A DNA stretch of 64,000 bases from NCBI GenBank assembly GCA_964019135.1, contig OZ025260.1, positions 11,154,254 to 11,218,253 on the forward strand, read 5' to 3'. This document shows positions 17,168 through 49,216 of the stretch, piece by piece. Below the pieces are notes generated by a model. The model ran no database searches. It was not told the origin of the DNA and saw only the letters and a list, made by a program, of their open reading frames with translations. A program made the position numbers and the translations under genes. The DNA comes from Arenicola marina. Taxonomy: Eukaryota; Annelida; Polychaeta; Arenicolidae. Each line of letters begins with the position of its first letter. Position 1 is the first letter of the stretch.

Positions 17168-20100
17168 ATGAAACCAGTTGGGGTAAATCATGAAAACAAA
17201 GAAGCCGTTCCGACATATGCACAGGATAAGGAACTAGATAAGTCTGAGGGTGTGTTTTCGCCAGGATCTGACCATAAAGCGATGGCGTACCCGGCTGGTG
17301 TACAGGAATTCGCAAGAGCCACCACGCTTCACGGAGCACGATATGTGTTGGATAGCAGACTGAACAAGATCAGACGGTAAGTCGACATTGGCTGTAATCT
17401 ACGGAAACGTGACAGCGGTGGTTTTCAAAAACAGGAAATTTCGCCTTTTTTTTACATAATCTCACATTAGCCCAAATAAATTTCTATGGGGAAGGGGTAA
17501 GAGGGGTCTGACTTTGAAAGCTTGTGATCTTGCGGGCGGGAGATAAGCACCAAAAATTGCTTTTTCTGTGATCTTTCTCGGCGAGTAAGGTGAGGGGAAC
17601 GCTTGATCAGAGGACTGGGCGTTGGGGAAGGGCTTCTGGTTCTTCGGTGCGTTGACCCAGGGATTGGAGTTTGGGGGGTTGTATCCCCCGAGGCCCCCTC
17701 GCCATGCTGGATCCGCCACTGTACCTGTAGCTCCCTTAATACTGGGTCCAAAGAGCTACGTTATTGCATAGTATTCCTAAGGGTACCGAAAATGATTCAA
17801 AATTGTCCAAATTCCCCGTAGCTACATGAATAAAGATACATGCCATACCATAGAAGTTTCCCTTACTTGGTGGAATATGTCCTTGACAAACATATGAAAT
17901 GGCATAAACATGTTGATAAGATCGCGAATAAAATCCCTGAACTTGCTGGGATTCTAAATAAATTGAAATGAACCCTTCCTCGGCATATTTTACGCACAAT
18001 TTATAATTTATAACTTTAATTTATAATAATTTATAGCACCCTAATATCACCCCATCTAAATTATGGCATCCTTATATGGGGGTATAAGACTGCAGAAAAG
18101 GGCTGTCAGAAATATTAATTTAAGTCGATTTAACGCCAACACAGAACCGATATTTAAAGAACTGAAATTGTTAAAATTGGATGATTGGCATATTGCAAAC
18201 CCAAAAGTGTCATTACAAGCTCAAGGATGATACATTACCATTTTACTTCTCACAGTTACCGATTGTTCATAGCCATCAAATTCATCACCACAATACGAGA
18301 TTCAATTCCCGATTGTCTACCACTATGGTATTTCACGACTTTGCAACTAATTGTATTCAACATAGCCTCGTTAAAGTTGTAAATGAAACTCCAACACTTA
18401 TTCTAAACAAAATATATAAGCATAGCTTACCTGCATTTGCGAGATATATTAAGGATAATTTAATAATTAACTATGATTTCAAGTGTCACATCGAACAGTG
18501 TTATATTTGCCGTCAGTTAATTGTCTGAATAACTTAAGTACATATATTGAAGCCGTTCATGTGAGGTGTGTTTTGATTTGAATTGAATACCTAAAATATT
18601 AGTGAAGATATATTACTGTTATCTTTTGATTGTTTATGTGTAACTGTATAACTTTAAAAATCACAACGTTTAGTGGCTCTAGCGCCAGCGACCTTTAAGG
18701 TCTTAGTTGGAGTCTCCCGGCCAAGTCGACACTATTTGTTTCACTTCTCGTTTGTATTTACGTCATACTTGGTCAAATAAAGCTGGGGAAAAGCTGTCAT
18801 CCTATCTTTAAATATTCCGTTATTTTTTAATCAGTTTATTATGGGACTTCATAAATATAAGAGTCTCTAACGATACAAAACATACTCTACTTACCAATTT
18901 AATAATTCACTGCGTAATGTTTAAAACTGAAATTCAATCAAAACATATTATAACGGAGGCGGTGGGGAGGAGGAGGTAATCCCTTCGGCATCTGTTGTCT
19001 GAATCATGACTGACTGGGTAGGACTTCTTGTTTTTAGCCAACAGCCGGTCCCTGATTAGCTGGCTTGGATAAACAACGGGTTGATAGGGGCGTCAGCGTG
19101 GACGAGTCCATTCTTGTTTCTGCTGTACTGGAGGGGGTTCTTGTTTCCTTACCGAATAAATAATATCTTGCGGTTACATTAAATTAATTCTGAATTTCAG
19201 AATTGTCATTTACGCGTAATTATAATGCCCACCCCCCACCCCTAACAAAATGACGAAAACCAAACGTCTGTTTGGCTGTTGGTCCTTGTGCTAATCTTGT
19301 GCTATTGTTTAACTTACAATTTGCTGAAGTAACTAGTATGCGTTTGATAGATTGAATTTACAAAATGACTGGTACAACATTTTTACCATGCGACGTTTTG
19401 TAACTAAACTGTACCAAATATGCCGATTAAAATTAACCGGCGTTCTATTTTGATGACGCCATATATTGGAATTCATGTCTTTATAACGTTTAGACTAGAT
19501 ATTAACTAATTCTTCATGCTGTCTTCTCGCGTCTAGTTGGCTATTGTCTTGATAATCAACCGGAACCTCACCTGTCTTTCAGCTTTCTCTGGTGCCTTGG
19601 CTTCTCGGCTTTCTGCGTAATTTGCGTCTACATGATTACCCAGCATCTCCAACGCTTTGCCAGACATCCAATCGTCACCCTAGACACTATCCAAGATGCA
19701 TCCAGCTTGGATTTTCCCGCGGTCACAGTTTGTAATTTCAATAAGATCAGAAAATCATTTGCGACCAAGGACGTGCGCCTTGAGGCAGCGCTGAGATATA
19801 GCTCCTATAGTTTAAACCGGCTTTCCTCCATTGACGGAAACGACACGGCCTACGATCTGGCCGTCAACACTGAATTGCGAGATATCGTCTCAAACTGGTC
19901 CATGGAAGAAATATATTGGCAGGGGCATCAAACAGCGGAAAATATGTTCATCGAATGCGGGTGGGCTGGTCAAATCGTTCGCTGTCGGGACTTCGTCGCG
20001 AAGATAAAAACGAGCGCTGGGTTCTGTTACACATTTAATTCGCAGGAGTTCATCGATAAGTTCGGCCGTTTGAATACTACTGGCATTGGACGGGATCACG

Positions 20101-23100
20101 AACTCTTTCTGCGGATGAATATTGACCAGCGGGACTACTTCGACACAGGTTCAAGGTTATCCGCGGGTGCGAAGGTCAGTTATGTTGAAGTTGAACGTTG
20201 ATTGTACTGTTTGTTTCGTCTGTTTCGTAATGCTGCTTACTTCATATCGCGATGCAAGCAGAGTATCAGATCAAGCAGACCGTCAAGTACTATTACTTCA
20301 TCGTAACATTGTAATAAGTCTCATTTAGTAGACACGTTAGACCATGTACCGGCTACCGGCTTAGTATAACTGACAACACTATGCAACCTACACTACAACA
20401 CGAATCCGAAAGAGCTAAAATACGGATATCTTTACAGTTTAACTTGGAAAGTGCTCATAGTTGTGATTTCTTCTTCAGGTTGTTCTTCATGAACCAACCG
20501 TGGCCCCGTCGGTAGAAGACCTTGGTTTTGCAGTATCGCCGGGCTTTGAATACCTGGCGGCTATCAGCAGAATAGAGGTATAGATGTAACTGAGATATTC
20601 CAGTCCGTTTGATACTCGACCAATCACTACATAGCATCGTTCTTATCAGGTGGACGGTGCATTTGACGTACATTCAAATACGGATTCAATTATCGTGGGC
20701 AGAAGAGCACTATGTTTTGTTTCTTTTACAGTAATACACGTCATACGAGGTACTGACATGTCAGGAAATCAAAACTAAAGTTATTATCATCGTTCCATGA
20801 TATAAATTACTTATGTGGCCTTCTTTCTATTGGCGTTTACTGCGGAAGCAAAAAGCAGGGAAAATATCAAATAACACCAAAAGGAGTAAACATCTCATGT
20901 CATTTGATCGCAGCCATATAATGATTATAGAGCTATATATGTCACCTAAACTCATACCATGCTTTGCTCTTTGGCCCGTTAATGCAGCCGGCTGTGATTA
21001 ACCCCATGGTCAATGAATCCATATAAATATGTCTCCATTAACGGGCCACGGGTATAAGCGGGATAAAGGGTAGGTACCGAGTCAATGGACGTCGGTAACA
21101 GACTAATTCAATGACGAAGAAACATTTACGGGAACCCATTGCCAGATCGGCTCAGTAGTACAGGGACATGACATGGCGAACCATTATATGTTATTGATGG
21201 CAACCGGCCCAGTTCGTTGTCTTTTGTGTTCCATTAAGTATGGCACCAGAGCGCAAAATACGCCGTCATGTCTTGGCCCAGCAGGAGTGAGTGGTCCATG
21301 GGTTACTGTTCCTAATGGTCGCGGCGGGGGTATGATTAGATGACCCCTTTGATACCCCGCACGGCCTCCATTTCCTGTCGCCGCCAATCGCGTCATCGCC
21401 ACCCCTCAATTCGGTACTAACCCCCTGCGGTGTAAATGTGACGACATATCCTAGGTTAATACGTGAATTACGCGGATCGCTTACCTATGTAAAGATTAAG
21501 GTCCATTAAGGTAAGCTACCAATAATAACAAGGTAACAGAACTCTGTATTTGTGATTATTTTATGAAATTTTACCCAATTACACACCTTCTGGTAAACTT
21601 TTAGGATACATTACCGTCCCGTTAACAAATATTCTCCATTTTCCAAGTATACCCTCATTTCACAAACACGTCCTGAAGCTTGAAAATGTTATTGCACAAA
21701 TATTTTTTGGCGCAGTTTATGTCACACAAATTACCAGTAATTTACGCCTTGTGTTCACATTCTAATAAATCCGGTTATATATAATGGTCTCCGATATAAT
21801 TATGATCTACACGAATGTTTTCTGAAGTATTTACAAGTTTTCTCTATGCCTTTTTCGTGAATTTTCCGAATTTATCACGCAGAGCCATTGTCGGGGAAAT
21901 ACCCTTGAATGATGTCACGAATTGGGGCTTTCCCTGTGAATGACGTAACGAGTTGAGGATTTCGCTTTCACTGACACCCGCCGATGTTTGTCGATGTTTA
22001 CCGAGATCTCTTCTAAATCGCTTATTACACGATGCTCTATTCATTTTACCTATGTCACCACTTCTTTTGCTGTGTTTTATTCGTGCTTTGTCCATTAAGA
22101 CTGTGTAAAATCTCAGGGCTACAGCCCGCCGATGTTTGCCGATGTTTACCGAGGTCTGCTCAAAATCGGCGAGGCTTATTATGGGGTGAGTTCGGGTATG
22201 CGAGCGGAGTAGTCGGACTCCGCGGAGCGCATAACCGAACGCGGAGATTGTGGTCCGATAGCGCGGTCACGTGGTACATTGGACTCCCAGACCTTACTCC
22301 CCACCCAGAGGAGGATTACCAGGATTTCCAACATGGCGTCCAGGCCGCACAATACATTTAATATATATATAGTAGTATTGCGACCTGCAAAAAATCTGTA
22401 AATAATATTATAGCAACGAGAATAAGATAATGAACACAATACGTACCCGTTGATTTATTTTAAGGCGCTATTTAAAGTTGCATGTCGAGCCCTTTCCCGC
22501 CAAAACTAATGAGGTCAAAATACATATAAGAATCAGTCCTTGAATCATTCAAGACTTCTGTTATCTATACTCCACCCATACCAGACTACCAAATAGTGTC
22601 TCTTAGCCTTGCCCGTGATATGAATTTACCACAAGTTTTCATTTTAGTGGTAAACGTCATCAGTTTGTGTGCTTCGCGATGCTTTGGTATAAGTAGCAGT
22701 GCCGCGACCGAGTGCTGTGGTGTCCCGGGATAGACACGTTTGCCACACCACAGCTGAAACGGCGATGTTTATCAGGTTTCTGAATTTATAGAATGAAACA
22801 ATCGAGTTTTCTGCAAATTTTGATATAAATTTCCCCTAGGCTTAGTTTTGGCGGGAAAGAACTCGACATGCAACTTTAACGATCTTCATAATTTGTGCAG
22901 TCCAGCAAGTGCAACATTCACGCGGACCGCGGATTTTGTGTCCGCCTATTAGCGGAAAGAGTGAGTCCGCATGTTCCAAATATCCGTGCCGATTACTCCG
23001 ATCGCATATCCGAACTCACCCATGGGTAGCTTACCTTAAGTCCTAGTTGACGCCATCGCCATGTTTGGCGCAGACAATTCCAAGAGGAGACGGAAGCTAA

Positions 23101-25400
23101 TATTACTGTTTCAGTCGTTTGACCACATATCTCAGTTATTAGAGGGGGTCCTTCCTGATTTTGATACACTAGCACAATAGACCGTATATCTCACTCCTGG
23201 GTTCGAATCCGGGCCATAGAGCCTAATCTGGGGCACCTTTCATCCCTTCACCTTCATCGTTGCCAGAGGTCCCTTGGTCCTGATTAGCCTAAGTGTGTAT
23301 AAAAGTGACATAGAGCACAAATTCACTTAGTTCGCGTGTATTCCACATCCACATGATCTAACATGTCCATCTTATCAGTAATGTTACGATCTCATTCTAT
23401 CAAATTCACGGTCGGTTCAGTCAGTTAAAGCCAAGCGCAAACCAATTATGCAGGTACTGCGTTGCTTGACTCTGCTGATATACCCGTGACACATACACAA
23501 ATACACTTATACGTCCAGGCGCGGCGTCTTCCCCAGCCGTACGAGGGGAGTGTGTGCGTCGACACCCAGGCTGCCTACTTCCGGAACCCCTTGGCCTACA
23601 GCGCCCCCTACTCATCGGAAGCCTGTCGACTGGAATGTCAGCTAAACTTCACAGTAAGCCGGTGCGGGTGCCGGCCCTACTACATCGACGGTGAGCCTTG
23701 ACCTGTTCGCAGTTCATTTTATCCTTGACATGATCAGGGCTGGGACTATCACAATAGTTAAGATCCATGCCCTGGAGTTGCTATAATATATTGCGATGTC
23801 ATCTCATGCAGTGGATATAAATAATTCAGAAATGTACACGGAGAACTTGTCTTACAGGCGGCAGTGAGAGGGTTTGTGATCTGTTGGAGTTTGCAGAGTG
23901 CGTCACGCCTGCCACAGGTAATACAATTTGACACCTTCTATTCACCGTTCCACATATGATTTATGATGCTTGGTATGCGCTCAACTGTCAAATAAGAGTA
24001 ATGTAATATTCATTCATTATTTTTCTCAATAAATGTTGAAATAAATAGAATTTTGGTTGTTTCGATCCGGTAAGTTTGACTTGCCACACGACATTGCATA
24101 ATTAGGTGTTTAAGCTATATCTAACGCTACGCCCGTATTGATAAAAGATGGCGCCTCACAATCTGGCAGCAGTGGTTTAGATCATAAAATTTATTTATTT
24201 ATGAGCTGGTATATTGCAATTTTGAAAATGCTTCTGACGAAGGACTGTTTCAGGTTTCTATGCCTGAATACCGTCTCCAAATGTTCCACTTAGCGCTAAG
24301 CACTAAATACGATTGAGGAACACAGTGCCAGGCCAATCATGTCTTGATGATCTCACCCCCCTCCCCTTCCCCGGCAGTGGCCTACAGCCGTATTGCCGGC
24401 AGCGATAGTGACTGTGGATGCAATAGAACGTGCCGAGAGGTCGACTACCAGGAAAAACTATCCTTCGCATATTACCCGAATATCTTCGTCAAGCAACAAT
24501 TCAATGTATCCGAAGAATATTTGAGGTACATTGATTATTTTCTGTTAGTAATGGCATTGATATAACACTAATAGTTTATCATGAACACAAGAACATGTTC
24601 ACTGGAATGGCTCGTGGCGAGGATATTGACCAAAAGAAGTACTTTGGTTAACGCGAAAAAAATGACCGTTTGATACGTGGTAAATTCGCAATGGGCCCAG
24701 GTGCTAAAATATTTAAAAAAGTGTGATTAGGCTGTCTGTAAAAAAATCCTCTATCAAGGTTGATTTGCTCCATGTCTTGACATATCATTAATAGGAAAAT
24801 TGTTCTTAACATTTGGCATGTACTATGCAAGACCACAACAGCTTTGTTGCGAGATGCAGGATCAACAAAACCATAAATTTCCAGTGAAATGTGAAAAACT
24901 CATTTTTTTCAGAGCAAATATTCTTGCGCTCTCGATATATTACGAACGCCTGGGGACGAAATTAGTTGTCCAGATACCTGCGTATGAACCAGAGGATCTC
25001 TTCGGTAAGCATGATGCGAGTTGTTTTTGCTCAATGGGTCAATACGCTGGGCAATGGGTGATATTGTTTAAGGTTGTATAGCAACATACATATATAATTG
25101 TGCAGGCATGATGTAAGGTTCAAGTCTGATGGATGTACTGCATGCACGTACTAGGTAAAGATTGCCATATATTTAATTGTTTTGTCCTGCAAGATTAATG
25201 TGACATTAGGTTTGTGTTATTATAAGTTGAACTTTGATCCTAAGGCAGATTCCTATTTTATTACAGCGGATATTGGCGGGGAGCTGGGGTTGTTCTTGGG
25301 CGCCAGTATCTTAACGTTATCAGAAATAGTCGAGTTCATCGCCATTTCATTGGTCAACGTCATCCGACGAATCAAACTGCGCAAGGAGGTTGTCGCGTAG
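17168..25400 (+). CDS. DEG/ENaC (ASIC-like) sodium channel subunit, gene 2
   Basis: Exons: 17168-17376, 19583-20174, 20479-20577, 23519-23690, 23858-23917, 24378-24525, 24913-25004, 25267-25400. They total 1506 bp, giving 501 aa, with consistent phases. Exon lengths 172, 60 and 92 bp match gene 1 exactly. Features: longer N-terminal tail, His-Gly motif at 55-56 (ATTLHGARYV), TM1 (FLWCLGFSAFCVICVYM), DFPAVTVCNFNKIRKS, GFCYTFNS, SPGFEY, ectodomain cysteines CRLECQLNFTVSRCGCRP and CGCNRTCREVDY, filter Gly-Ala-Ser at 469-471, TM2 ending VEFIAISLVNV, and a short basic tail. The intron that gene 1 has after FNK is absent here. AATAAA at 25812 is a possible poly(A) signal. Paralogue of gene 1; gating stimulus unknown. 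Confidence 0.92.
17835..18800 (+). mobile_element. Decayed LINE 3' remnant in gene 2 intron 1
   Basis: Conceptual translation, across several frame changes and stops, shows the C-terminal part of a CR1/L2-type reverse transcriptase: LDKHMKWHKHVDKIANKI, LPRHILRTIYN, LISPHLNYGILIWG, LQKRAVRNIN, then NTEPIFKELKLLKLDD and a terminal HHNTRFNSRLS block (to about 18528). The tail has GTCAAATAAAGCTGGGGAAA. It is heavily degraded and older than the LINE at 3203. Confidence 0.7.
22472..22879. mobile_element. TTAA-flanked MITE, copy 1
   Basis: About 408 bp bounded by TTAA on both sides. Terminal inverted repeats of about 35 bp read AGTTGCATGTCGAG..CTTTCCCGCCAAAACTAA. There is no coding capacity. Copies at 39622-39996 and 57709-58116 share ends and interior (GAATCAGTCCTTGAATC..., TGCCACACCACAG...). 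The TTAA target site is the piggyBac-type preference, but the terminal sequence was not matched to a named family. Confidence 0.85.
23167..23215 (+). other. tRNA-like promoter block (A/B box), possible SINE relic
   Basis: A good B box GGTTCGAATCC lies at 23200-23210, with a weak A-box-like TAGCACAATAG about 30 bp upstream. The flanks cannot form an acceptor stem, so this is not a working tRNA gene. It may be a tRNA-derived SINE fragment. Confidence 0.3.
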
Positions 25401-25843
25401 GTGGCAGAAGTTAATGCCAATCCGGAAGACATGGCTCGTGGTGGTTTGGCAACGGGGGGCGGTGTCAATGACAATGACAAGGAACACTGCCAGATGGCAC
25501 TTTACATGTCCCAATGATACAGAGTGCACCCACTGGCAGGTGACATAGAACTCATCCACAGGACAAAGGATTCATACCGATGCCAGTGTCGGTGGAATTG
25601 GTCTCATACAAAGGATAGATATTGTGTTCCGAAGACGTTCATATAAATCTGAGTTCTTAGGGTGACTTGTTTCAATATATTTAAATGCACCACAGTGCAA
25701 ATTGGTAGTTTATTCATTACTTTTTAATCAGATAGATATTTTCCATTCGTTGCTGGTTTATTCAGAAGCGTGACACATTCATTATATACGCAGCAAATAG
25801 AGCGTGTTATTAATAAATGCAACACGAAATGTCCGATTCGTCT

Positions 25844-28800
25844 TCACAACACGGCAAAGGCTACTATAAGTACCACCGACAATGCTAAGTCATTATTCGC
25901 AATGGCTGCCTTAGATTCGATATATTCCGTGACAGCAGAACCGTTGTAGGCCGTCGTCGTGCGCCAACTCTCCCAGGCTACCACCACCCGTGGAGGTGTG
26001 GTGCTCGGCCTGTGGTAGACAGGCTGGTCCCCATCGTCAGCGGCTGTGCTGTACCGCAGAGGGACTTGCCATACGTCTATGGCCTGCATGACGTCACCAG
26101 GCGTCGTACGCGGTGAAGGCATTGGAGGTCTGTGATAGGTCGGCAGGGGCGGTCGCTGGCCAATAGCGACGTCCGCGCAACCATAGAACTGTTCCTGGTT
26201 ACCGCAGCCTACGCATGCGCGGCCGTCTGCTTCCACTCCCCAACTGTTTCCTGGAGCATGGAAATACATTTACAAAAAAACAAGACAAGAACGTCTATGG
26301 AGACCCATGTACTGACAGTAAATCCCTGACAGGGAACCAAAAAAAGCCCATGTCATTTACAGATTGGTTGGCCATATCTGAAGTATGATTGTCGGTCCTT
26401 GCGGCGGTATCCAGAGCATTAACAGACAGTTGCACTTCAGCGATCATGATGGCGAGTTCCACATTTCCAAACCGTAAGCGTACGGCACACCCGGATCAGA
26501 AACAAACGCGTTGGATATATTGCAGGTGGGTCCATGTTATATATCCATCAATGGGTACCTGCTCAGCTGGCAATGTTACCCAGCAATGTTATGCTGTCGC
26601 CTTTTATGACACCGTTTCAAGCTTGAATAGTTGAGCGCATTATGACGGCAGATCTGCCCCGGCCCAGACCCACTCCTGCACAAAATATTATTGATTCATC
26701 GTTAGCGATGCTGTTTACGGCCATCGCAATGCACGAAACTGAACTTTTCTATATAACGTTGTAGGCATTTTAACAATAATGTTTTAAGGTGGTCGCCTGC
26801 ACGGTACGTACATATACATGTCGATTCAGTACGGCCATTGCATGCCCCTCAGTGTTGTTCTAGTTACTCATGGGCGTTGTGCTATGGACCATAGCCCCAA
26901 GTCGTAGCAATGCTAACAACTTCTTCTTCCTTTGCAGTTTCGCCTGTGTGTCTCGCTCTATTGTGTTGACAGTGGTAGGGGTGCTGGCAGTGGTGGTGGT
27001 GACAGTGGTAGTGGTGCTGGCAGTGGTGGTGGTGGTGGCAGTGGTAGTAGGGCTGGCAGTGGTGGTGGTAACAATGTCAGTAGTACTGGATATAGGATAG
27101 GGTGAAAAATCCCGAAAGTTCGCCCACTCTCTTCTGGAGTGACTTGCGGTGTCCGGGGTTTCCTTAGAGGGATTAGGACTGCCTAATTCTCGTCGAGGTT
27201 CGGTAGCCTCTCGCCGTGATAATCCGTCTATATTGTTGCCTAGAAATTCCATTGGAGCAGACAGCTTTGATGGCTCATCATGGGAAATACGGCGATTGGC
27301 ATTTCCGCCTGCCTGTGCAAGTGGCTGCTGGTCGGGGACGTTGCCTATATTTGATGAATCCTTCTGTTCGTGAGCCATCGCTTCGTTACGCACATCGCGT
27401 TCATAATCCTGAAACCTTAGCCAATCTAGAGTCTGCGACGGAGCCATCAGGGTATCCGGGACCGACTGGTCGCCGCCGGCTCTCTGGCTATTTCCCCATA
27501 GATCCAGATCATTCACCTCTGCAAGCTGATCCAGATTTCCATAATCGGTGTATGCGAAGTCGTCCTCCGGATTTGTATTCCATATGAAACTGTAAAGCTC
27601 CGTGAAAAACACGTCCAGAATATCTTTGACAGAAAACGGTGTTGATGGACCTAGTTCTGGCGGTGCTGCCAGAGCAGACGAAAGGACGTCATCGACAGTA
27701 GCTTCGACCCTCATGGGTGATATAGCGAGCCCATCACTCCGCGTGTTAACTGACACCTTATGCCTTACTCCTACGTTGTTATTTCGCAAATTGCGGTTCG
27801 TTGTCAAGATGCTTGTTTTCTTTTGACGCACAGTTGCTCCTGCCTCTGGTAACGAGTTTTGGTTACGGACCCCTACACTTGCTCCGACAAGTTTGAGTTC
27901 CGTCCTTGACGCGGGTGGATTGTCATCCTGCTTTATTCTCCATTCCTCTCCGTCCCTGGATAATGCTGGCGCGCCCAGTGTATTAGGCAGTATATTACGA
28001 TCTGAGCCACTGGTATATGTGCTAACACGTGGGGTGGTAAATCCTTCAACACTTGCGTCAATTGTGACACCTTTTACGATGTGTTTATTGACGTCATTAA
28101 TGAAACCCCTTCCGATGACCTTTGAGTGGTCATCACCACGGCTGCTTCCATTTTTGTTGTTTGTGACGCCATCACGGAGGTTTGTCCCTACGTTACCTTG
28201 GACGGCATTAAGGTTCTTCTTTTCGGCAGCATTTTCGATGCTTTTATTGCGATGATTGCCGTCAACAGAATCGTGGCTCTTCCCGTCACCGTCCGAACCC
28301 CCGTCGGTACTGTTTATCACCGGGGCAGCCGTCGTCGTCAAGACGACATCACCGATTGTGACGTCAGCGCATGCGTAAAACTGCTCTTGCGATCCACAGC
28401 CGATACAGGACGTGCCATTTTCATCGGTGCCCCAGTTGTTGCCTGAAAGCATGTCAAAGTCGGTTCCATTGATATCGTTACTTGGTTGGAATGAACCACC
28501 GCACCTTCCTTTATGAACAGGCTCCCTTGAATTATTTAATACTGATGTCACTACGTCGGGGTTTCCATGACATTCCTTCCTCCGTGTTAACCTTGTCACG
28601 TATGCAGTAGATGATGTTATTTAACCAACATATCACTTGCTTCCGCCTTTCGCAACTGGTGGCGCCACCGGCCGTCATACATGAAGAATGACTTGGTACA
28701 CCAAGAGTGGAGGCCTCGGCGCCATAACCCGCTTTGTCCCACACACGCCGAGGTGCGAAGGTCCGCCCGTGTGGCGTTAATGACCCAACCTCGTTGTCAG

Positions 28801-30321
28801 ACACATCAAATAGTCGTTAAAACTGGTTCAAATATGCAGGCGTGCCTGGCATATGCGGGCAGTCCTATACACATTGGTGTCAATCAGGACAGTAATTAAG
28901 CAATGCTGTCATTATGTTTAAGGTGAATGGTTGTATCAGGATTTAGGTGCAAGTTATAGAAAACATGATAGTTATAGGGTTGCGGACATCTTCCCATGTA
29001 GAACATTTTGACCTTAATTAAATTTACGCGTCATAAAGGACACCTACCTGCATTGTACATCCATTGGATGACGCACTGACTGCACTCCAACCCCTTGGGC
29101 AGCTCCAACAAAATCTCGTGCTTCATTGGATAAGTGGGCGTGACGTAATAGCGCGTGCCGCTGCCGTCAGCCAATGGGAGCACGTGGCGATTGAGGCAAT
29201 CCCACGTAGCCGCTCTGTAGAAGTCGTTGTTGGGGCAGATCCGGAACTCAAACCAGCCCCGGTGGGGAGCCGTGATCTCCACCACCACCAGGATCACGCT
29301 GGAGACGGAATACTGCCTGGTGATGATCCCGTTGGCGTACTTGCCCCCCGCCTCGTGTTCCCGGGGCCCCTGCCAGGGGTCACCGCAAACACCGCACTTC
29401 CCGCCGTGGATCTGCCACTGGTTCTAAGCGCCAGCAGGAAAGCATTAATGACTGATAGCGGTGCCAAAACTGCATGGCAGTAAATCAATTATGTTATACA
29501 AATCTGTACAATTATTTCTTTTCGTAATTTGTTAGAGGAATATCGATGGATAATTATTTGGTACAGTGTTTTCAATCGAGAATTGATATTTATCGAGAAG
29601 ATAATTAGGTGTGTACCATTATGGCGAGAATAATCCATTGTAATATCACTAAGAGACAAAACATACAGTATGTTTGCGGCATTAGCCATTTACGGATTCA
29701 ATAATAAGCAAATGAAAGATTGCCTTTTATTTACGATTCCTTTCTTTGTCTTCAATGTCTTAGGGTTTATAACAATATAACGCGTGTTATGTCTGTCTGA
29801 TGCAATGAGTATGGAAAGGAAAAATATCGATTGGTTCTTAAATGTTGTTTAATTTATTGTTACTCTGTCACAATTACGATGTATGTTCATCCTGGCACAG
29901 CACAATGTAAGTATATAAAATTGTATTTAGCGTCGACGTTAAACTTTAACAGGAGACCCAGGAAAAGAAAATGGTATTGGTTTGTCGTATGTATATAAAT
30001 TAATCTTGACAAAACCTGGATTACAAACTTATCGCACTCACATATATTTACCACTTCGAAAACTGAATATGTGGTCGATCAATGACCCAGCAATCTTAAT
30101 ACAAGCATACGTTTAATACGAGACTCCTGGACATTGCCTGATATTTAAATCAGTTTTACCGTGAATCCGCCACAGAACAGCTGGTTATCCAGGTAGTTAT
30201 GGGGCGTGTCGTATCCGGACCTCCACATGCTGGCGCGGGACGGAGGCTCCAGAAGTCGGCCATGACCTTCTGTATCCAGGATGTGACTCAAATCAATGAT
30301 AATCCACAGCAATAGCCACAT
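25844..30321 (-). CDS. AA15 lytic polysaccharide monooxygenase, short isoform with GPI-type tail
   Basis: Exons (minus strand): 30321-30160, 29417-29048, 26250-25844. They total 939 bp, giving 312 aa. A 19-residue signal peptide (MWLLLWIIIDLSHILDTEG) is followed directly by His20 (HGRLLEPPSR), the N-terminal copper ligand of the histidine brace. The second brace histidine is His106 in TAPHRGWFEF. CGGF, GGKCGVCGD, HEAGGKYANGIITRQYS and the SQCVIQWMY strand follow the AA15 order. The last exon supplies GNSWG, GCGNQEQF with axial Phe199, and CADV, then a Pro/Thr-rich spacer and a hydrophobic C-terminus (NNDLALSVVLIVAFAVL), typical of a GPI-attachment signal. AA15 enzymes oxidatively cleave chitin or cellulose. 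AATAAA (minus) at 25757-25762. This isoform is inferred from phase and splice sites only. Confidence 0.8.
26860..30321 (-). CDS. AA15 lytic polysaccharide monooxygenase, long isoform with mucin-like tail
   Basis: Same first two exons as the short form, joined to the nearer last exon 28442-26860 (1583 bp). They total 2115 bp, giving 704 aa. The acceptor TGCTTTCAG|G keeps the phase (G|GC completes Gly178). This exon repeats the core end: GNNWGTDENGTSCIGCGSQ, axial Phe199, CADVTIG. It then adds about 490 residues rich in Ser, Thr, Asn, Asp and Gly with many N-glycosylation sequons, a Thr/Ala/Ser repeat near the end (codons in 26985-27085), and a basic segment (LQRKKKLLALLRL). No membrane anchor is visible, so it is predicted to be secreted. 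The tail resembles disordered linkers seen after LPMO domains; no carbohydrate-binding module was recognised. Confidence 0.85.
28443..29047 (-). other. Intron 2 of the LPMO gene
   Basis: About 0.6 kb between exon 2 and the long last exon. The reading frame of the last exon stays open upstream to 28599, but those residues are intron read-through: the conserved GNNWG start and the acceptor are at 28442. Nothing else was seen. Confidence 0.6.
29418..30159 (-). other. Intron 1 of the LPMO gene
   Basis: AT-rich intron of about 0.74 kb without coding signal or recognisable repeat. Confidence 0.6.
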
Positions 30322-30770
30322 GGTTGGCAGCAGAGTGTTATGTCTGGTGATTATTATAGCTCACTGCAGTTCGCCATGTTGGTTGCCGAATACCAAGCTA
30401 AGTTCTTGTTTTTGGGTTGAACAACTCAACACTACGCTGCATGAGTTCTTAATTCAGTACCGAACACGTGGTGACGCGAAAGGACATTGTGTCACGAGTA
30501 GCATAAAGTCATATCCAGTCAACAAGACAAGGCGATTTGATGGAAGTCCTCATGCGCCATATTGTTAGAACAGTAAGTGTCGGAGCTTACAGTCACCGTC
30601 TCCAATCACCGCACCACGTGTCATTGTATGCCGCTCATGCACAACAGTCCAGCAACTGAAATGTTTACGACAATTTCATTGCCCGTCGTTTTATTTCAAC
30701 GCCACCACCCGGGTAATTCTAAATTTGGCAGTGATCGTTTTTGCCTTTGGCTATGGTCATATATTGCCAG

Positions 30771-30886
30771 GAGAGGGAGCCTCCTATGGCCCGTAACAAT
30801 GTGTCGGTGGCCTCGAGATACTGTACAGTGTCTCGGTATAGTGAGGCCAACCCGCTGACGCCCCAGGGCACGGTGCTGCCATACAG
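30771..30886 (+). other. Candidate orphan exon, plus strand
   Basis: An acceptor-like tract ending ATTGCCAG is followed by an open stretch reading ERE..., MARNNVSVASRYCTVSRY and ...ANPLTPQGTVLPYR up to a GTAACA donor. The composition looks protein-like, but no partner exon was found and the product is unknown. It may be chance. Confidence 0.2.
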
Positions 30887-31623
30887 GTAACATTTTATGA
30901 CCTGGCTGTATAATAACTATGGGTCAGTCCTTGTTACAATCTATCGACTCGTGCTTCGCGGAGTCGAATACTGAGTTGCATGTGAGCTGCATCACAGGTC
31001 GCTCGGCCTGGACTTCTGAACTCCCTAATTGAAGTGTTATGGGCATATAGCAATGACATAGGCAACTATTCACTTGTGTTAGACCACGGTAACGATCTGA
31101 ATCTGGGTCATGAGCCTCAAATACGACACAGAAATTGACAACATATTTTACAGTAGACTTTTCTGGCCCTGGCCGGTCAAAATATAACTGGAACTAACAG
31201 GGTATGGGCTGCGCTTCGGGGTCTAAGCCTAGAGAACCGACTGTATTCTTGGGATCGGGATTTAGACATATTCATTGACATATTTGTGGTGTGTACCATA
31301 TTTGGGTTACAACCAGAATCAGAATCAGAGCCGTTCTACTTCGTCAAGCATTCATAACATAACAAACAATATCCGGATAAGGAAGAGATCCAATTTGACC
31401 AGAAATGGCAGCGTATTATTAATACTGCATTAGACAAATAGCGACAAAAACTTGATTAAATTTAAATATCTGGTTAAGCGGGTGTGCCATCTAGTGGGGT
31501 GACGCCGATGCGGCGACAAGAGACTTATGAAAATAATACCAGGGGGAAAATGGTACGATAATCCTTTAGTTTATGATCATAGCTCTCTGGAATGATGTCC
31601 GATATGAATACATGAAGGCCATG

Positions 31624-31971
31624 TTAGTTAACCGATAAATAATTAAAACCGAGGGTCATGTCAGTAACCTTATAGATTCCTGGTATAGGTACAGTCCACT
31701 TGACGGTGCCCGCATACCTGGGGGAAATATTTGGCCTGGGCCGATTCCATCTTATAGGTCCCGATCGACAGAATAATCGCGGCACCATTCGGACAAAGTT
31801 GGACCCCGCCGTGCTGTGCAGCGGCTGACAGGGACACGATGAATAAGTAATCACGCCCAGTAATGCGGGGTGATCAAGGCGGGCGTGGCCGTGAAAACCA
31901 CGTTGAAACAGCCATATCACCACGCAAAGGACGTATCCCAGGCTTGACGAACACCTGTCACAGCGATTCAT
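31624..31971 (-). CDS. Candidate secreted protein or exon with an N-terminal His after a signal peptide
   Basis: An ATG-started 115-codon frame begins with a basic and hydrophobic leader (GYVLCVVIWLFQRGF) followed by HGHARLDHPALLG, then Cys-containing segments (YSSCPCQP, RLFCRSGP) and a beta-strand-like GTVKWTVPIPGIYKV. A His-x-Arg-Leu start after a leader recalls copper monooxygenases, but the rest of the AA15 core (CGGF, GGKCGVCGD) is not here. It may be an exon of a related or unrelated secreted protein. It lies 1.3 kb upstream of the LPMO gene on the same strand and is divergent from channel gene 3. Low confidence that it is expressed. Confidence 0.3.
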   Translation of the reverse strand: MNRCDRCSSSLGYVLCVVIWLFQRGFHGHARLDHPALLGVITYSSCPCQPLHSTAGSNFVRMVPRLFCRSGPIRWNRPRPNISPRYAGTVKWTVPIPGIYKVTDMTLGFNYLSVN

Positions 31972-32036
31972 CCTGCAAGGATTCCGAGCAGATTAGACCG
32001 GGTTATTTCTCTAACCAATTAGCTGAGGCGATATAG

Positions 32037-35000
32037 ATGCAGGCGTGTGAAGGCCTGACGCCGGGAAGAATGCACCCACAGAGTCCGGAACCCGGACCGG
32101 ACGGAGACGTCGCGGATCCGAGCGACTCCAGCGCGACAGATCGCACACCAGACACACGATTCGCTTTCGCGGAGGAAGTTCGTGGTTTCCTGGGTGATGT
32201 GTCCGTGGTTGGCGCCAGATACGTCGCGCTCAATGACGCCCCGCGGATCCGGAAAGTCGTCTGGATCACGCTTATTTTGTTCGGAATCGGCTTCCTGGCA
32301 TTCCAGATATTTGATCGGGTCAAATATTTTAGCAGTAACCCAATCATGGTAGACGTCCGGCTCTTCCACAACAGGACGCTGAGATTCCCAACCGTCACGA
32401 TTTGCAACGAGAACCGCTTGTCCAAGCGAAGAGTGGCGGTCATGGGTGAGTAAGAGTGTCCCTCCTGGGTGAGAAAGAGTGACCCTCCTGAGTGAGTAAG
32501 AGTGACCCTCCTGGGTGAGAAAGAGTGACCCTCCTGGGTGAGTAAGAGTGACCCTCTTGGGTGATTAAGAGTTACCCACCTGGATAAGTAAGAGTGACCC
32601 TCCTGGGTGATCAAGGGTGACCCCCCTAGGTGAGTAAGAATGACTTGCAGGGGTGAGTAAGAGTGACCCTCCTGGGTGAGTAAGAGTGGCCCTCCAGGGG
32701 GGCAAGAGTGACCCTCCTGAGTGAGTAGGAGTGACACTCCTGGGTGAGTAAGACTGGCCCTCTCGGGTGAGTAATAGTGACCCTCTAGGGTTAGTAAGAG
32801 TGACCTTCCTGTGAAGTAAGCGTGACCCTCCTGGGTGAGTGAGAGTGACCCTCCTAGGTGAGTAAGACTGACCCTCTTGGATAAGTAAGAGTGACCCTCC
32901 TTTGTGAGTAAGAGTGACCTTCCTGGGTGAGTAAGAGTGACCCTCCTATGTGAGTGAGAGTGACTCTCCTGGGTGAGTAAGAGTGACCCTTTTGGGTTAG
33001 TAAGAGTGACCCTCCTTTGTGAGTAAGAGTTAGTCTCTTGGGTGAGTAAGAGTGGCAATCCAGAGGAGCAAGAGTGACTCTCATGGGTGAGTAGGAATGA
33101 CCCTCCTGGGTGAGTAAGACTGGCCCTCTCGGGTGAGTAATAGTGACCCTCTTGGGTGAGTAAGAGTGACCCTCCTGGGAAGTAAGCGTGACCCTCCTGA
33201 GTGAGTGAGAGTGACCCTCCTGGGTCAGTAAGAGTGACCCTCTTGGATGAGTAAGAGTGACCCTCCTTTGTGAGTAAGAGTGACCCTCCTGGGAGAGTAA
33301 AAGTGACCCTCCTGGGTGAGTGAGAGTGACCCTCCTGGATGAGTAAGGGTGACCCTCTTGGGTGAGTAAGAATGACCCTCCTTTGTGAGTAAGAGTGACC
33401 CTCCTTTGTGAGTAAGAGTGACCCTCCTGCGAAGTAAGCGTGACCCTCCTGGGAGAGTAAGAGTGACCTATAAGGGGAGCAAGAGTAACCCTCGTGGGTG
33501 AGTAGGAGTGACCCTCCTGGGAAGTAAACGTGATACAACTGGGGGAGTGAGAGTGGTTCTCTTGGGTGAGTAAGAGTGACCCTCCTTTGTGAGTAAGAGT
33601 GACCCTCCTGCCAAGTAAGAGTGACCCTCCTGGGTGAGTAAGAGTGACCCTCCAGGGGAGCAAGAGTGACCCTCGTGGCTGAGTAGGAATGACCCTCCTG
33701 ATGAGTAAGACTGGCCCTTTCAGGTGAGTAATAGTGACCCTCCTGGGAAGTAAGCGTGACCCTCATGGCGGGGGGGTGAGAGTGGCCCTCTTGGGTGAGT
33801 AAGAGTGACCCTCCTTTGTGAGTAAGAGTGACTCTCCCGGGTGAGTAAGTGTGGCCCTCCTGGGTGAGTAAATATTACCCTCTTGGGTGAGTAAGAGTTG
33901 CCCTCTGGGTGAGTAAGGGTGACCCTCCTAGGTGAGTAAGAGTGGCTCTCCTGGGTGTGTAAGAGAGACCCCCGTGGGTGAGTAAGAGTGACTCTACTGT
34001 GTAAGTAAGATAGACCCCCTGGGTGAGTAAGAGTGACCCTCCTGGGTAGAGTAAGAGTGACCCTCCTAGGTGAGAAAGAGTGACCCTCCTTTGTGAGTAA
34101 GAGTTACTCTCTTGGGTGTGTAAGAGTGACAATCCAGAGGAGCAAGAGTGACTCTCATGGGTGAGTAGGAGTGACCCTCCTGGGTGAGTAAGACTGGCCC
34201 TCCTTTGTGAGTAAGAGTGACTCTCCCGGGTGAGTAAGTGTGGCCCTCCTGGGTGAGTAAGTATTACCCTCTTGTGTGAGTAAGAGTTGCCCTTTGGGTG
34301 AGTAAGAGTGGCTCTCCTGGGTGTGTAAGAGAGACCCTCGTGGGTGAGTAAGAGTGACTCTACTGGGTGAGTAAGATAGACCCCCTAGGTGAGTAAGAGT
34401 GACCCTCCTAGGTGAGTAAGAGTGACCCCCCTGGGAAGTAAGCGTGACCCTCCTGGGTGAGTGAGAGTGACTTGCCTGGGTGAGTAAGAGTGACCTCCTG
34501 GGAAGTAAGCGTGACCCTCCTCGGTGAGTGTGGCCCTCTTGGGTGAGTAAGAATTTCCCTCTGGGTGTTTAGGCACGGCCCTCCTGGGCGAGTAAGGATA
34601 GCCCTCCTGGGTGAGTAAGAGTGGCCCTCCTGGGTAAGTAGGAGTGACTCTACTGGGTGAGTAAGGTAGACCCCCTGGCTGAGTAAGACTCTTGTGGGTG
34701 AATAAGAGTGACTCTACTGGGTGAGTGAGAGGGACCCTTGTGGGTGAATAAGAGTTACCCTCCTGGGTGAGTAAGAGTGACCCTCCTGGGTGAGTAAGAG
34801 TGGCCCTCTTGTGTGAGTAAGAGTGACGCTCTTGGGTGAGTAAGAGTGGCTCTCCTTGGTTAGTAAGAGAGACCCTCCTAGGTGAGTAAGAGTGACCCTT
34901 CTGGGTGAGTAAGAGTGACCCTTGCGGGTGAACAAGAGTGACCCTCCTGGTGAGTAAGAGCGACCCTCCTGGGTGAGTAAGAGTGGCCCTCTTGTGTGAG

Positions 35001-38000
35001 TAAGAGTGACGCTCTTGGGTGAGTAAGAGTGGCTCTCCTTGGTTAGAAAGAGAGACCCTCCTAGGTGAGTAAGAGTGACCCTCCTGGGTGAGTAAGAGTG
35101 GCCGTCTTGTGTGAGTAAGAGTGACCCTCTTTGGTGATTAAGAGTTACCCACCTGGATAAGTAAGAGTGACCCTCCTGGGTGATCAAGGGTGACCCTCCT
35201 GGGCGAGTAAGAGTGACCCTACTGGCTGAGTAAGATTGACCCCCCCCCCCCCTTGGATGAGTAAGATTACCCGCCCCCCCCTGGGTGAGTAAGAGTGACC
35301 CTCCTAGATGAGTAAGAGCGGCCCTCGTGGGTGAGTAAGAGTGGCCCTCCTGGGGGAGTAAGTGTGGCCTTGCCGGGGGAGTACGAATGACTCTCCTGGG
35401 CAGAGTAAGGGTGACCCTCTTGGGTGAGTAAGAGTAAACCTTCTAGGTGAGTAAGAATTACCCTCCTGGGTGAGTAAGAGTGACCCTGCTGGGTGAGTAA
35501 GTGTAACCCTCCTAGGTGAGTAAGAGTGACCCTCCTAGGTGAGTAAGAGTGACCCTCCTGGGTGAGTAAGGGTGACCCTCCTAGGCGAGTAAGAGTGACT
35601 CTCCTGGGTGAGTAAGAGTGACTCTCCTGGGTAGAGTGAAGGCGACCCTCCTGGCTGAGTAAGAGTGAGCCTCCTGAGTGAGTAAGAGTGACCCTCCTGG
35701 GTGAGTAAGGGTGACCCTCCTAGGTGAGTAAGAGTGACCCTCCTGGGTGAGTAAGAGTGACCCTCCTGGGTGAGCAAGGCTGACCCTCCTAGGTGAGTAA
35801 GAGTGACTCTCCTGAGTGAGTAAGAGTGACCCTCCTGGGTGAGTAAGAGTGACCCTCCTGGAAAGAGTAAGATTGACCCTCCTGGGTAGAGTAAAGGTGA
35901 CCCTCGTGGGTGAGTAAGAGTGACCCTCCTGGGTAGGGTAAGAGTGGCCCTCCTAGGTAAGTAAGAGTGACCCTCCTGGGTGAGTAAGGGTGGCCCTCTT
36001 GGGTGAGTAAGGGTGACCCTCTTGGGTGCGAAAGAGTGAGTGGGGGGGGGGGGTGTTAATGCCTAATGTTTGATTACGCGGGCAATAGTTCCTTTGCCAT
36101 AGTTCGCGCCACTGCGCGGGGAAAAGGGGATAGAACATTCGAGAGAGAGAGAGAGAGAGAGGAACGGTCAGTTAGCGAGTGAGCAGCCATTGCAAGAGGA
36201 CGAGTTTTTAGAAAGAGTTTTGTTTCAATTGGATACACCGGGGCTGGCAGACAGTTAACTAACCGCTGCCAGTTAAGTTGCACACCGTGTGATAGAGTTG
36301 TGAATTGCTAAGTTCTTATAAGTTTAATTATGTTATAAATTGGGTATATTAAGTAAACCATCGAAACTTTATCGCTGAGTTCGCCTCCATTGGCATTGCC
36401 TTGCGCCACCACCGTGTTAAAAAAAGACCGTGTCGAACGAACACTCGTTTTAGGGTTGTTATTAGCCTGATTAGGCCTATTAGGTTAAATTAAATCAACA
36501 CAACGAGAAGTAATACTATAGTAATAATGAAGTAAAATAAGATCATGTCAGGAAAATATCACAGAAGGACTAAATGCCAAAATGGAAAGATATTACACCA
36601 ATGCTCATACGGAAATTCCACTATACAATTATTATATTAGTCAGTGGCAATAGATAAAATATTGATTAAAACCATAAACTGTTTTTGCCCTTTGTAGGTG
36701 ACGACGTGGTGGACTACATCGTCTCCTTGAATCCCGCCATCAAGTTTGCTGATCAACAACCCGTAAATGTCAACCATGGCATGTTCAACTTCTCTGCAAT
36801 CAACTGGGCGCAGTTTTATGCCGTCAATGCTCAGCCCAAGGAGGAAGCTTTGGTAGTGGTAAGTATGGTGTAGGTGTGGTGTATATAATGTGGTATGTAT
36901 GATATGTTAGATGTGTGATGTGATGTGTGTGATGTTGTATGCATGATGTGGTAATATGACGTGGTATGTATGATATGGTATTATTCTGTGGCATGTATGA
37001 TATGGTATTATTCTGTGGCATGTATGATATGGTATTATTCTGTGGCATGTATGATATGGTATTATTCTGTGGCATGTATGATATGGTATTATTCTGTGGC
37101 ATGTATGATATGGTATTATTCTGTGGCATGTATGATATGGTATTATTCTGTGGCATGTATGATATGGTATTATTCTGTGGCATGTATGATATGGTATTAT
37201 TCTGTGGCATGTATGATATGGTATTATTCTGTGGCATGTATGATATGGTATTATTCTGTGGCATGTATGATATGGTATTATTCTGTGGCATGTATGATAT
37301 TGTATTATTCTGTGGCATGTATGATATAGTATTATTCTGTGGCATGTATGATATGGTATTATTCTGTGGCATGTATGATATGGTATTATTCTGTGGCATG
37401 TATGATATGGTATTATTCTGTGGCATGTATGATATGGTATTATTCTGTGGCATGTATGATATGGTATTATTCTGTGGCATGTATGATATGGTATTATTCT
37501 GTGGCATGTATGATATGGTATTATTCTGTGGCATGTATGATATGGTATTATTCTGTGGCATGTATGATATGGTATTATTCTGTGGCATGTATGATATGGT
37601 ATTATTCTGTGGCATGTATGATATGGTATTATTCTGTGGCATGTATGATATTGTATTATTCTGTGGCATGTATGATATAGTATTATTCTGTGGCATGTAT
37701 GATATGGTATTATTCTGTGGCATGTATGATATGGTATTATTCTGTGGCATGTATGATATGGTATTATCCTGTGGCATGTATGATATAGTATTATTCTGTG
37801 GCATGTATGATATAGTATTATTCTGTGGCATGTATATGATAACACAGCGCGGATATATCCCTGCATACTTCCCTGATTACCACGGTGATTGCTGATTCAA
37901 AATCGCCGCGCTCACTGAGCTTACCTTGGCTGTGTTTTGACCAGGTGTCATGGGATGGCCGAGATATATACGCCAGCGCGTTACACAATGTGGAGACCAA

Positions 38001-40910: not shown

Positions 40911-41872
40911 TAGGGCACGCGGCAGGTGTTCTGGTGGCGTGGTGGGGTGAGAGAGCACGCGGCTGGGGTTCTGGTGGCGTGGTGGGGTGAGAGGGCTCGC
41001 GGCAGGGGTTCTGGTGGCGTGGTGGGGTGAGAGGGCATGCGGCTGGGGTTCTGGTGGCGTGGTGGGGTGAGAGGGCTCGCGGCAGGGGTTCTGGTGGCGT
41101 GGTGGGGTGAGAGGGCATCCGGCTGGGGTTCTGGTGGCGTGGTGAGGTGAGAGGGCACGCGGCAGGCGTTCTGGTGGCGTGGTGGGGTGAGAGGGCACGC
41201 GGCTGGGGTTCTGATGGCGTGGTGGGGTGAGAGGGCACGCGGCTGGGGTTCTGATGGCGTGGTGGGGTGAGAGGGCACGCGGCTGGGGTTCTGATGGCGT
41301 GGTGGGGTGAGAGGGCACGCGGCTGGGGTTCTGATGGCGTGGTGGGGTGAGAGGGCACGCGGCTGGGGTTCTGGTGGCGTGGTGGGGTGAGAGGGCACGC
41401 GGCTGGGGTTCTGGTGGCGTGGTGGGGTGAGAGGGCATGCGGCTGGGGTTCTGGTGGCGTGGTGGGGCGAGAGGGCACGCGGCTGGGGTTCTGGTGGCGT
41501 GGTGGGGTGAGAGGGCTCGCAGCAGGGATTCTAGTGGCGTGGTGGGGTGAGAGGGCACGCGGCTGGGGTTCTGATGGCGTGGTGGGGTGAGAGGGTACGC
41601 GGCTGGGGTTCTGATGGCGTGGTGGGGTGAGAGGGCTCGCGGCTGGGGTTCTGATGGCGTGGTGGGGTGAGAGGGCACGCGGCTGGGGTTCTGATGGCGT
41701 GGTGGGGTGAGAGGGCACGCGGCTGGGGTTCTGATGGCGTGGTGGGGTGAGAGGGCATGCGGCTGGGGTTCTGGTGACGTGGTGGGGTGAGAGGGCTCGC
41801 AGCAGGGATTCTAGTGGCGTGGTGGGGTGAGAGGGCTCGCGGCAGGAGTGCCTCTGGCGTGGTGGGGTGGCG
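40868..41872 (+). repeat. 40-bp minisatellite starting inside the last codons of gene 3
   Basis: About 25 units of exactly 40 bp: GGGTTCTGGTGGCGTGGTGG, then GGTGAGAGGGCACGCGGCTG with variants. It begins within the gene 3 reading frame (codons for RARGRGSGGVVG) and continues about 960 bp past the stop at 40908-40910, so the 3' UTR is probably repeat. Units are G-rich on the plus strand. Minus-strand frames rich in HPTTP are by-products. Confidence 0.95.
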
Positions 41873-48725: not shown

Positions 48726-49216
48726 TAAGGGCCACATTGCGGCCAACCACTGTGTTGTAGCCACATTGCAGCCAACCAGTGTTGTAGCCACATTGCGGCC
48801 AACCACTGTGTTGTAGCCACATTGCGGCCAACCACTGTGTTGTAGCCACATTGCGGCCAACCACTGTGTTGTAGCCACATTGCGGCCAACCAGTGTTGTA
48901 GCCACATTGCGGCTAACCACTGTGTTGTAGCCACATTGCGGCCAACCACTGTGTTGTAGCCACATTGCGGCCAACCACTGTGTTGTAGCCACATTGCGGC
49001 CAACCACTGTGTTGTAGCCACATTGCGACCAACCACTGTGTTGTAGCCACATTGCGGCCAACCACTGTGTTGTAGCCACATTGCGGCCACACATTGCGGC
49101 CAACCACTGTGTTGTAGCCACATTGCGGCCAACCACTGTGTTGTAGCCACATTGCGGCCACACATTGCGGCCAACCACTGTGTTGTAGCCACATTGCGGC
49201 CAACCACTGTGTTGTA
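48726..49216. repeat. 29-bp minisatellite downstream of gene 4
   Basis: About 16 units with core TTGTAGCCACATTGCGGCCA plus ACCACTGTG. Two units are shortened to ACCAGTG and two carry an extra GCCACACATTGC insertion. The minus-strand frames (ATTQWLAAMW) are by-products. Confidence 0.9.

Follow-up and report, generated by a model that had tools for sequence, protein, structure and literature searches.

An annelid AA15 LPMO gene with two candidate alternative last exons, one predicted to yield a soluble and one a membrane-bound form

The stretch of DNA analysed here (64 kb, in the following termed the window) carries on its minus strand an AA15 LPMO gene composed of exon 1, exon 2, and two last exons of equal phase (3a and 3b). 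The question raised by this locus is whether both terminal exons serve one gene, which might then place its enzyme either in the surrounding matrix or on the cell surface, or whether one of them is out of use, the stump of a lost neighbour, or an internal exon.

The earlier note on this DNA had attributed it to a lancelet, an attribution that has to be given up in favor of an annelid, judged by the mitochondrial genes of contig C762 and an annelid-type globin match. C762 (15,942 bp) is mitochondrial and carries on one strand the order nad4L-nad4-rrnS-rrnL-nad1-nad3-nad2-cox1-cox2-atp8-cox3-nad6-cob-atp6-nad5, with tRNAs between. Ten of the 13 protein genes were put to Pfam, nine of them scoring above the cut-off and nad6 below it (22.7 vs 33.2 bits); nad2, nad4L, atp8, cox3, and the rRNAs were assigned by position and recognition, the Pfam family of nad2 being that of nad4 and nad5. 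This gene order presumably fits the annelid assignment. A globin exon pair on contig C14 finds its best matches in annelid-type extracellular haemoglobins (E 5.2e-41, among 37 PDB sequences listed), under labels such as 'giant V2 hemoglobin', whose source species we take to be annelids. Because of the mitochondrial gene order and the globin matches, the genome is taken as annelid. GFP genes, sought as a marker of lancelets, gave no match here, but as the controls gave none either, this result was set aside. Within the window, exons of an ENaC/degenerin gene type (PF00858, amiloride-sensitive sodium channel) flank the LPMO gene on both sides on the plus strand (19506-20201, 23429-23701, 25155-25400, and 32037-32453), and the near-side ENaC frame ends 444 bases from the LPMO stop. 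A 3.6-kb minisatellite with a 23-bp unit in about 158 copies occupies 32429-36039; it and its surroundings show open frames of up to 623 codons that are repeat-like and probably not genes. Further dense minisatellites with basic units of 27-40 bp lie at 36939-37835, 40871-41869, 45297-45880, and 48731-49216.

The gene model is based on the minus strand between 31500 and 24500, and on the frames of at least 60 aa across 20000-36000. Exon 1 (30160..30321; this and all following gene features are on the minus strand) encodes a hydrophobic leader, MWLLLWIIIDLSHILDTEG, followed by the mature His1 (HGRLLEPP...), and ends with the donor ACG|GTAAAA in phase 0; its product aligns to TdAA15A (5msz) starting at residue 1. 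Exon 2 (29048..29423) encodes the main part of the AA15 domain, including the second histidine of the brace (APH88), and ends with the donor CAG|GTAGGT in phase 1. Exon 3a (26860..28442) consists of a head and a 495-aa tail closed by a TAG stop. After a gap of 609 bp, exon 3b (25844..26250) consists of a head and a 104-aa tail with a hydrophobic end, closed by a TGA stop. The earlier note was thus right in placing two separate 3' exons here: both follow an AG acceptor, start in phase 1 (G|GC AAC AAC TGG in 3a, G|GA AAC AGT TGG in 3b), and continue the frame of exon 2, which ends at base 29048. One donor (29048) hence faces two terminal acceptors of matching phase, the arrangement expected of alternative last exons. 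Spliced in silico, exons 1, 2, and 3a yield a long form of 706 aa, and exons 1, 2, and 3b a short form of 314 aa, with one terminal stop each. The reading frame of 3a spans 586 codons from stop to stop; its 526 exon codons would be open by chance with a probability of 1.4e-11 (from base composition), while the other five frames contain 11-37 stops. For 3b, the corresponding probability is 0.008, which considers length alone and is less telling than the value for 3a.

By its sequence, the window gene is an AA15 LPMO gene. The core spliced with the 3b head matches Thermobia domestica AA15 (5msz) with E 4.5e-57, residues 1-190 aligning to 1-192, as its sole PDB match at E up to 1, and reaches 67.6 bits with the LPMO_10 profile (cut-off 23); both searches used the 3b head, and 11 of the 30 residues are different in the 3a head. 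A Pfam search of the 3a and 3b products gave nothing close to a cut-off. The histidine brace is present in both forms (H1 and H88 in APHxG, His1 being assumed as mature N-terminus), and either form has ten core cysteines, three of them contributed by exon 3; ten conserved cysteines are described for AA15 LPMOs in the cited part of PMC5823890. The end of the catalytic core lies in the heads (3a, 28351..28442, NNWG...CIGC...EQFYACADVTIG; 3b, 26159..26250, NSWG...CVGC...EQFYGCADVAIG). Both supply the axial Phe and the CADV strand, as had been proposed, that is, Phe182 in mature numbering, the NxWG Trp, and three of the ten core cysteines in each. By alignment counting, the Trp of N(N/S)WG sits at Td Tyr166 and the Phe of EQF at Td Tyr184. 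From this alignment it follows that exon 3, be it 3a or 3b, contributes three cysteines, the axial residue, and one residue of the substrate surface. TdAA15A (Sabbadin 2018, PMC5823890) shares with the window gene the full-length domain, the ten core cysteines, and, by alignment counting, His1, Ala-Pro-His, and Tyr24; the window gene differs from it by having Trp at the Tyr166 position and Phe at the Tyr184 position, and by its long C-terminal tails. The same Trp and Phe replacements characterize the insect LPMO15-1 proteins (group I) analysed in PMC9156745, in the part cited here, and the window gene shares them. Chitin is probably the substrate of the predicted copper enzyme.

The two tails differ in nature. 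Exon 3b ends with a hydrophobic C-terminus (25847..25888, LALSVVLIVAFAVL-stop), and simple sequence rules find the features of a GPI signal in the short form: a leader, a candidate attachment site at Ser292, a spacer of 8 residues, and 14 hydrophobic residues up to the stop, although a short membrane span is also compatible with them. The last 14-mer has a mean Kyte-Doolittle value of 3.14 and ranks first among the 337 stop-ended ORFs of at least 60 aa in the window, and none of 20,000 shuffles of the 3b tail was as hydrophobic at its C-terminus. The GPI-type end formerly ascribed to the short exon is therefore well founded as a hydrophobic feature, being the most hydrophobic of 337 ORF ends, and 3a lacks such an end (mean Kyte-Doolittle of its last 14 residues, -0.19). 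The 495-aa tail of 3a contains no cysteine, 23% charged residues, and 21% Ser+Thr. Its description as glycosylation-rich holds for one Thr-rich, mucin-like block of 40 aa near the end (26971..27090, 80% S/T/P), where a tandem repeat finder reports a 33/36-bp array (26963-27073), but not for the tail overall, which has 3 N-glycosylation sequons vs 7.8 in shuffles. Further on, at 26881-26940, the 3a form ends in a stretch rich in basic residues and leucine (KLQRKKKLLALLRLGAMVHS), perhaps a site of processing or a helix that binds membranes. The pair of C-terminal six-cysteine repeats typical of LPMO15-1 is absent from the window gene, neither tail having a cysteine. In the cited part of PMC8615602, some AA15 proteins are described as GPI-anchored, and disordered C-terminal regions are given for 32% of AA15, with Ser/Thr enrichment across families. 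Reading the long form as secreted and the short form as GPI-anchored fits the sequence, both the signal peptide and the anchor being predictions.

To place this gene among its relatives, the assembly (867,369,267 bases in 762 contigs) was searched; only the best candidates were scored, so all counts are lower bounds. With exon 2 plus the 3a head as the query, at least nine matches were obtained from 11 candidates, with exon 2 at no fewer than four places and the exon-3 head at no fewer than five. One of the exon 2 matches is the window gene's own copy on contig C13, and the other three are all on C9, each with its own exon 3. Three AA15 genes are arranged there in tandem (37267000-37346999), about 30 kb apart, with three coding exons in the phases of the window gene. 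Each of these paralogues shows one last exon, in which the head is followed by a Thr-rich stretch and a pair of six-cysteine repeats. Their exons 2 are nearly identical (1-4 of 375 bases differ), and their last exons encode 465, 466, and 227 aa with Thr-rich linkers of different lengths, as if the linker-coding repeat expands and shrinks. A motif scan for exon-3 heads detected three across an 80-kb stretch of C9, and the window contained two. The 3b protein and 452 of the 526 residues of 3a, used as assembly queries, recovered the same heads, and among the assembly matches scored none was confined to the 3a tail or the 3b tail. Two weak matches of 3b on C12 (E 0.057 and 1.58) were rejected, because scanning all their frames with a strict and a loose head motif found nothing, whereas the same scan recovered the 3b locus as its control.

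The tandem genes on C9 demonstrate that AA15 tandem duplication occurs in this genome, and 3b might accordingly be a stump, left by a tandem duplicate whose exons 1 and 2 are gone. The earlier note had named an exon 1/2 pair belonging to the short exon itself as the observation that would speak against alternative splicing; such a pair was looked for in the 3.6-kb interval, the window, and, for exon 2, the assembly, and was not found. In 25400-29047, queries from the C13 and C9 loci gave no exon 1 or exon 2 relative better than E 0.20, the C13 exon 1 and 2 queries returned nothing from the 64-kb window besides self and noise, and no spare exon 2 for 3b turned up assembly-wide among the best candidates scored with the exon 2 query. 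The exon 2 on C13 appears to be the only partner for 3b among the assembly matches scored. Moreover, 3a and 3b lie a mere 609 bp apart, and 3b has kept its acceptor, frame, and core residues intact. We consider such a stump quite improbable.

The signals for splicing and 3' end formation bear on a further alternative. On a donor-site matrix, the exon 2 donor is good with 6.1 bits, and the exon 1 donor scores 0.8 bits. The acceptor tract of 3a is poor in pyrimidines (52%, with 29% T), that of 3b somewhat richer (62%, with 48% T), and that of exon 2 67% pyrimidine. Neither AATAAA nor ATTAAA is present between 3a and 3b; of 13 poly(A) hexamers sought in this interval, the variants CATAAA (26603..26608) and AATATA (26516-26521) are the only ones found. 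Behind 3b, AATAAA occurs twice as a candidate poly(A) signal (25757..25762 and 25709-25714). With AATAAA following only 3b, the long and short forms may share one 3' end. None of the three C9 genes has AATAAA within 600 bp after its stop, and this hexamer can thus serve only as a loose criterion in this genome. Exon 3a could instead be internal, spliced from the phase-1 donor AAG|GTAACG at 28197 to 3b, whereby both heads would stand in series in one protein. This site has the right phase and, by the same matrix, 3.2 bits, a value between those of the exon 1 and exon 2 donors, and neither AATAAA nor ATTAAA intervenes between the two last exons. Such a protein would, however, carry a second core end without a core to complete, and none of the three C9 relatives shows this arrangement, which makes an internal 3a highly improbable. 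A weak proximal and a stronger distal acceptor are, we infer, what a regulated choice between 3a and 3b would need.

The age of the exon pair was derived from the heads. The 3a and 3b heads are 63% identical across 30 aa and find each other by tblastn in the 64-kb window with E 2e-10 and 1e-11, which excludes chance likeness. Over the 30 codons compared, about 19.6 synonymous differences fall on 19.2 sites and 14.4 replacement differences on 70.8 sites (pS 1.02, i.e. saturated; replacement-site difference 0.20). Compared with the C9 head over 29 codons, two unpaired C9 codons having been removed by hand, 3a shows 0.82 synonymous and 0.19 replacement difference, and 3b 0.94 and 0.13, respectively. 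The statement that the exons are diverged and not fresh duplicates stands, with synonymous sites saturated and a difference of about 20% at replacement sites. A recent duplication of exon 3 is ruled out by the saturated synonymous sites, and an assembly artefact by two exon copies that are too unlike. No nucleotide similarity at E up to 1 was found in plus orientation between 29045-26851 (intron 2 and 3a) and 26859-25400 (3b and flanks).

When the 34 base differences between the heads were placed randomly, a mean of 20.1 amino-acid changes resulted, and the observed number of 11 or fewer was reached in 0 of 5000 trials; with half of the base changes placed neutrally, 11 or fewer occurred in 45% of trials, so the amino-acid count alone is compatible with one neutral lineage. 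Polarised by the C9 head, 5 amino-acid changes fall on 3a and 4 on 3b. This split speaks against one neutral lineage and gives no sign of decay in just one of the exons since they were duplicated. The comparisons of these 29-30 codons show both heads to be under selection for protein sequence, as judged from the substitution pattern. Combined with the missing spare exon 2, this constraint makes it unlikely that 3b is a relic. The head comparisons also weigh on the possibility that one exon alone is used, 3b working in a membrane-bound AA15 gene while 3a is a copy out of use or disabled very recently, or with the roles exchanged. The weaker acceptor of 3a, the lack of a standard poly(A) hexamer behind it, a tail without the third-position GC bias of exon 2 (GC3 0.50 vs 0.82), and the single last exon of each C9 paralogue agree with this idea. 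It is contradicted by the 586-codon open frame in 3a, the core residues kept in both heads, and the even distribution of amino-acid changes between 3a and 3b, and we regard it as unlikely.

Alternative terminal exons are thus the best explanation of the locus, with both junctions predicted from the gene structure. That a single annelid AA15 LPMO gene uses one or the other of two 3' exons, the products of an ancient last-exon duplication, is the account that we consider reasonably probable. The low pyrimidine content of the 3a acceptor, the lack of AATAAA and ATTAAA between 3a and 3b, and the single last exon shown by each C9 paralogue weigh against it. Exons 1 and 2 would provide the predicted signal peptide, both histidines of the brace (His1 and H88), and the greater part of the fold, and the joining of 3a or 3b to the phase-1 donor at 29048 would add the last ~30 core residues together with a tail. 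Use of 3a would produce a soluble enzyme with a long tail, whereas use of 3b, with 3a skipped, would produce a cell-surface enzyme held by a GPI anchor or by a C-terminal hydrophobic segment. Transcripts of the 3a form may use a weak poly(A) site close to 3a or continue to the AATAAA sites behind 3b, so that the choice may be one of acceptor and not of poly(A). A more far-reaching version, in which one gene switches both location (matrix or cell surface) and the edge of the catalytic face, via the exon-specific last 30 core residues around the surface Trp and the axial Phe, is conceivable but doubtful. In that version, the membrane form might trim newly made chitin beside the cell that secretes it, with the soluble form acting in the mature tube or chaeta.

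Several components of this arrangement have counterparts in other systems. In the cited part of PMC9156745, the insect LPMO15-1 proteins possess a Cys-rich end, which resembles the six-cysteine repeats of the C9 paralogues (the first being C-X15-C-X3-C-X4-C-X4-C-X1-C by eye), and LPMO15-2 has a predicted C-terminal membrane span resembling 3b. Cys-rich and membrane-span forms are separate gene groups in insects (PMC9156745, same part), whereas the window gene alone would give rise to both soluble and membrane forms. The cited part of PMC8615602 does not describe both endings within one AA15 gene. Outside the LPMOs, alternative 3' splicing of Drosophila Mmp1 adds a soluble or a GPI ending, releasable by PI-PLC, to one secreted enzyme; its catalytic part is fully common to both forms in the cited part of PMC5353688, while each last exon of the window gene would also rebuild the last 30 core residues. 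In Tribolium Knk3, a cuticle-organising protein that is not an LPMO, splicing decides on a predicted GPI ending in a developmentally regulated manner, by inclusion of a frame-shifting exon (PMC4140639, cited part) and not, as in the window gene, by duplicated last exons. Among the best-ranked titles of the open-licence literature, no report was found of one LPMO gene with both endings, of LPMO splicing, or of an annelid LPMO study, and the main text of a tubeworm genome paper (PMC8476170) contains neither 'monooxygenase' nor 'LPMO'. GPI-anchored AA15, disordered AA15 tails, and soluble/GPI splice switching are hence already known; both endings in one LPMO gene were not found among these titles.

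The animal AA15 studies found concern insects. A splice-made pair in an annelid, if true, would show how a single copper enzyme is shared out between matrix and cell surface. Annelids produce chaetae and tubes of beta-chitin, and this gene offers a direct test in such animals.
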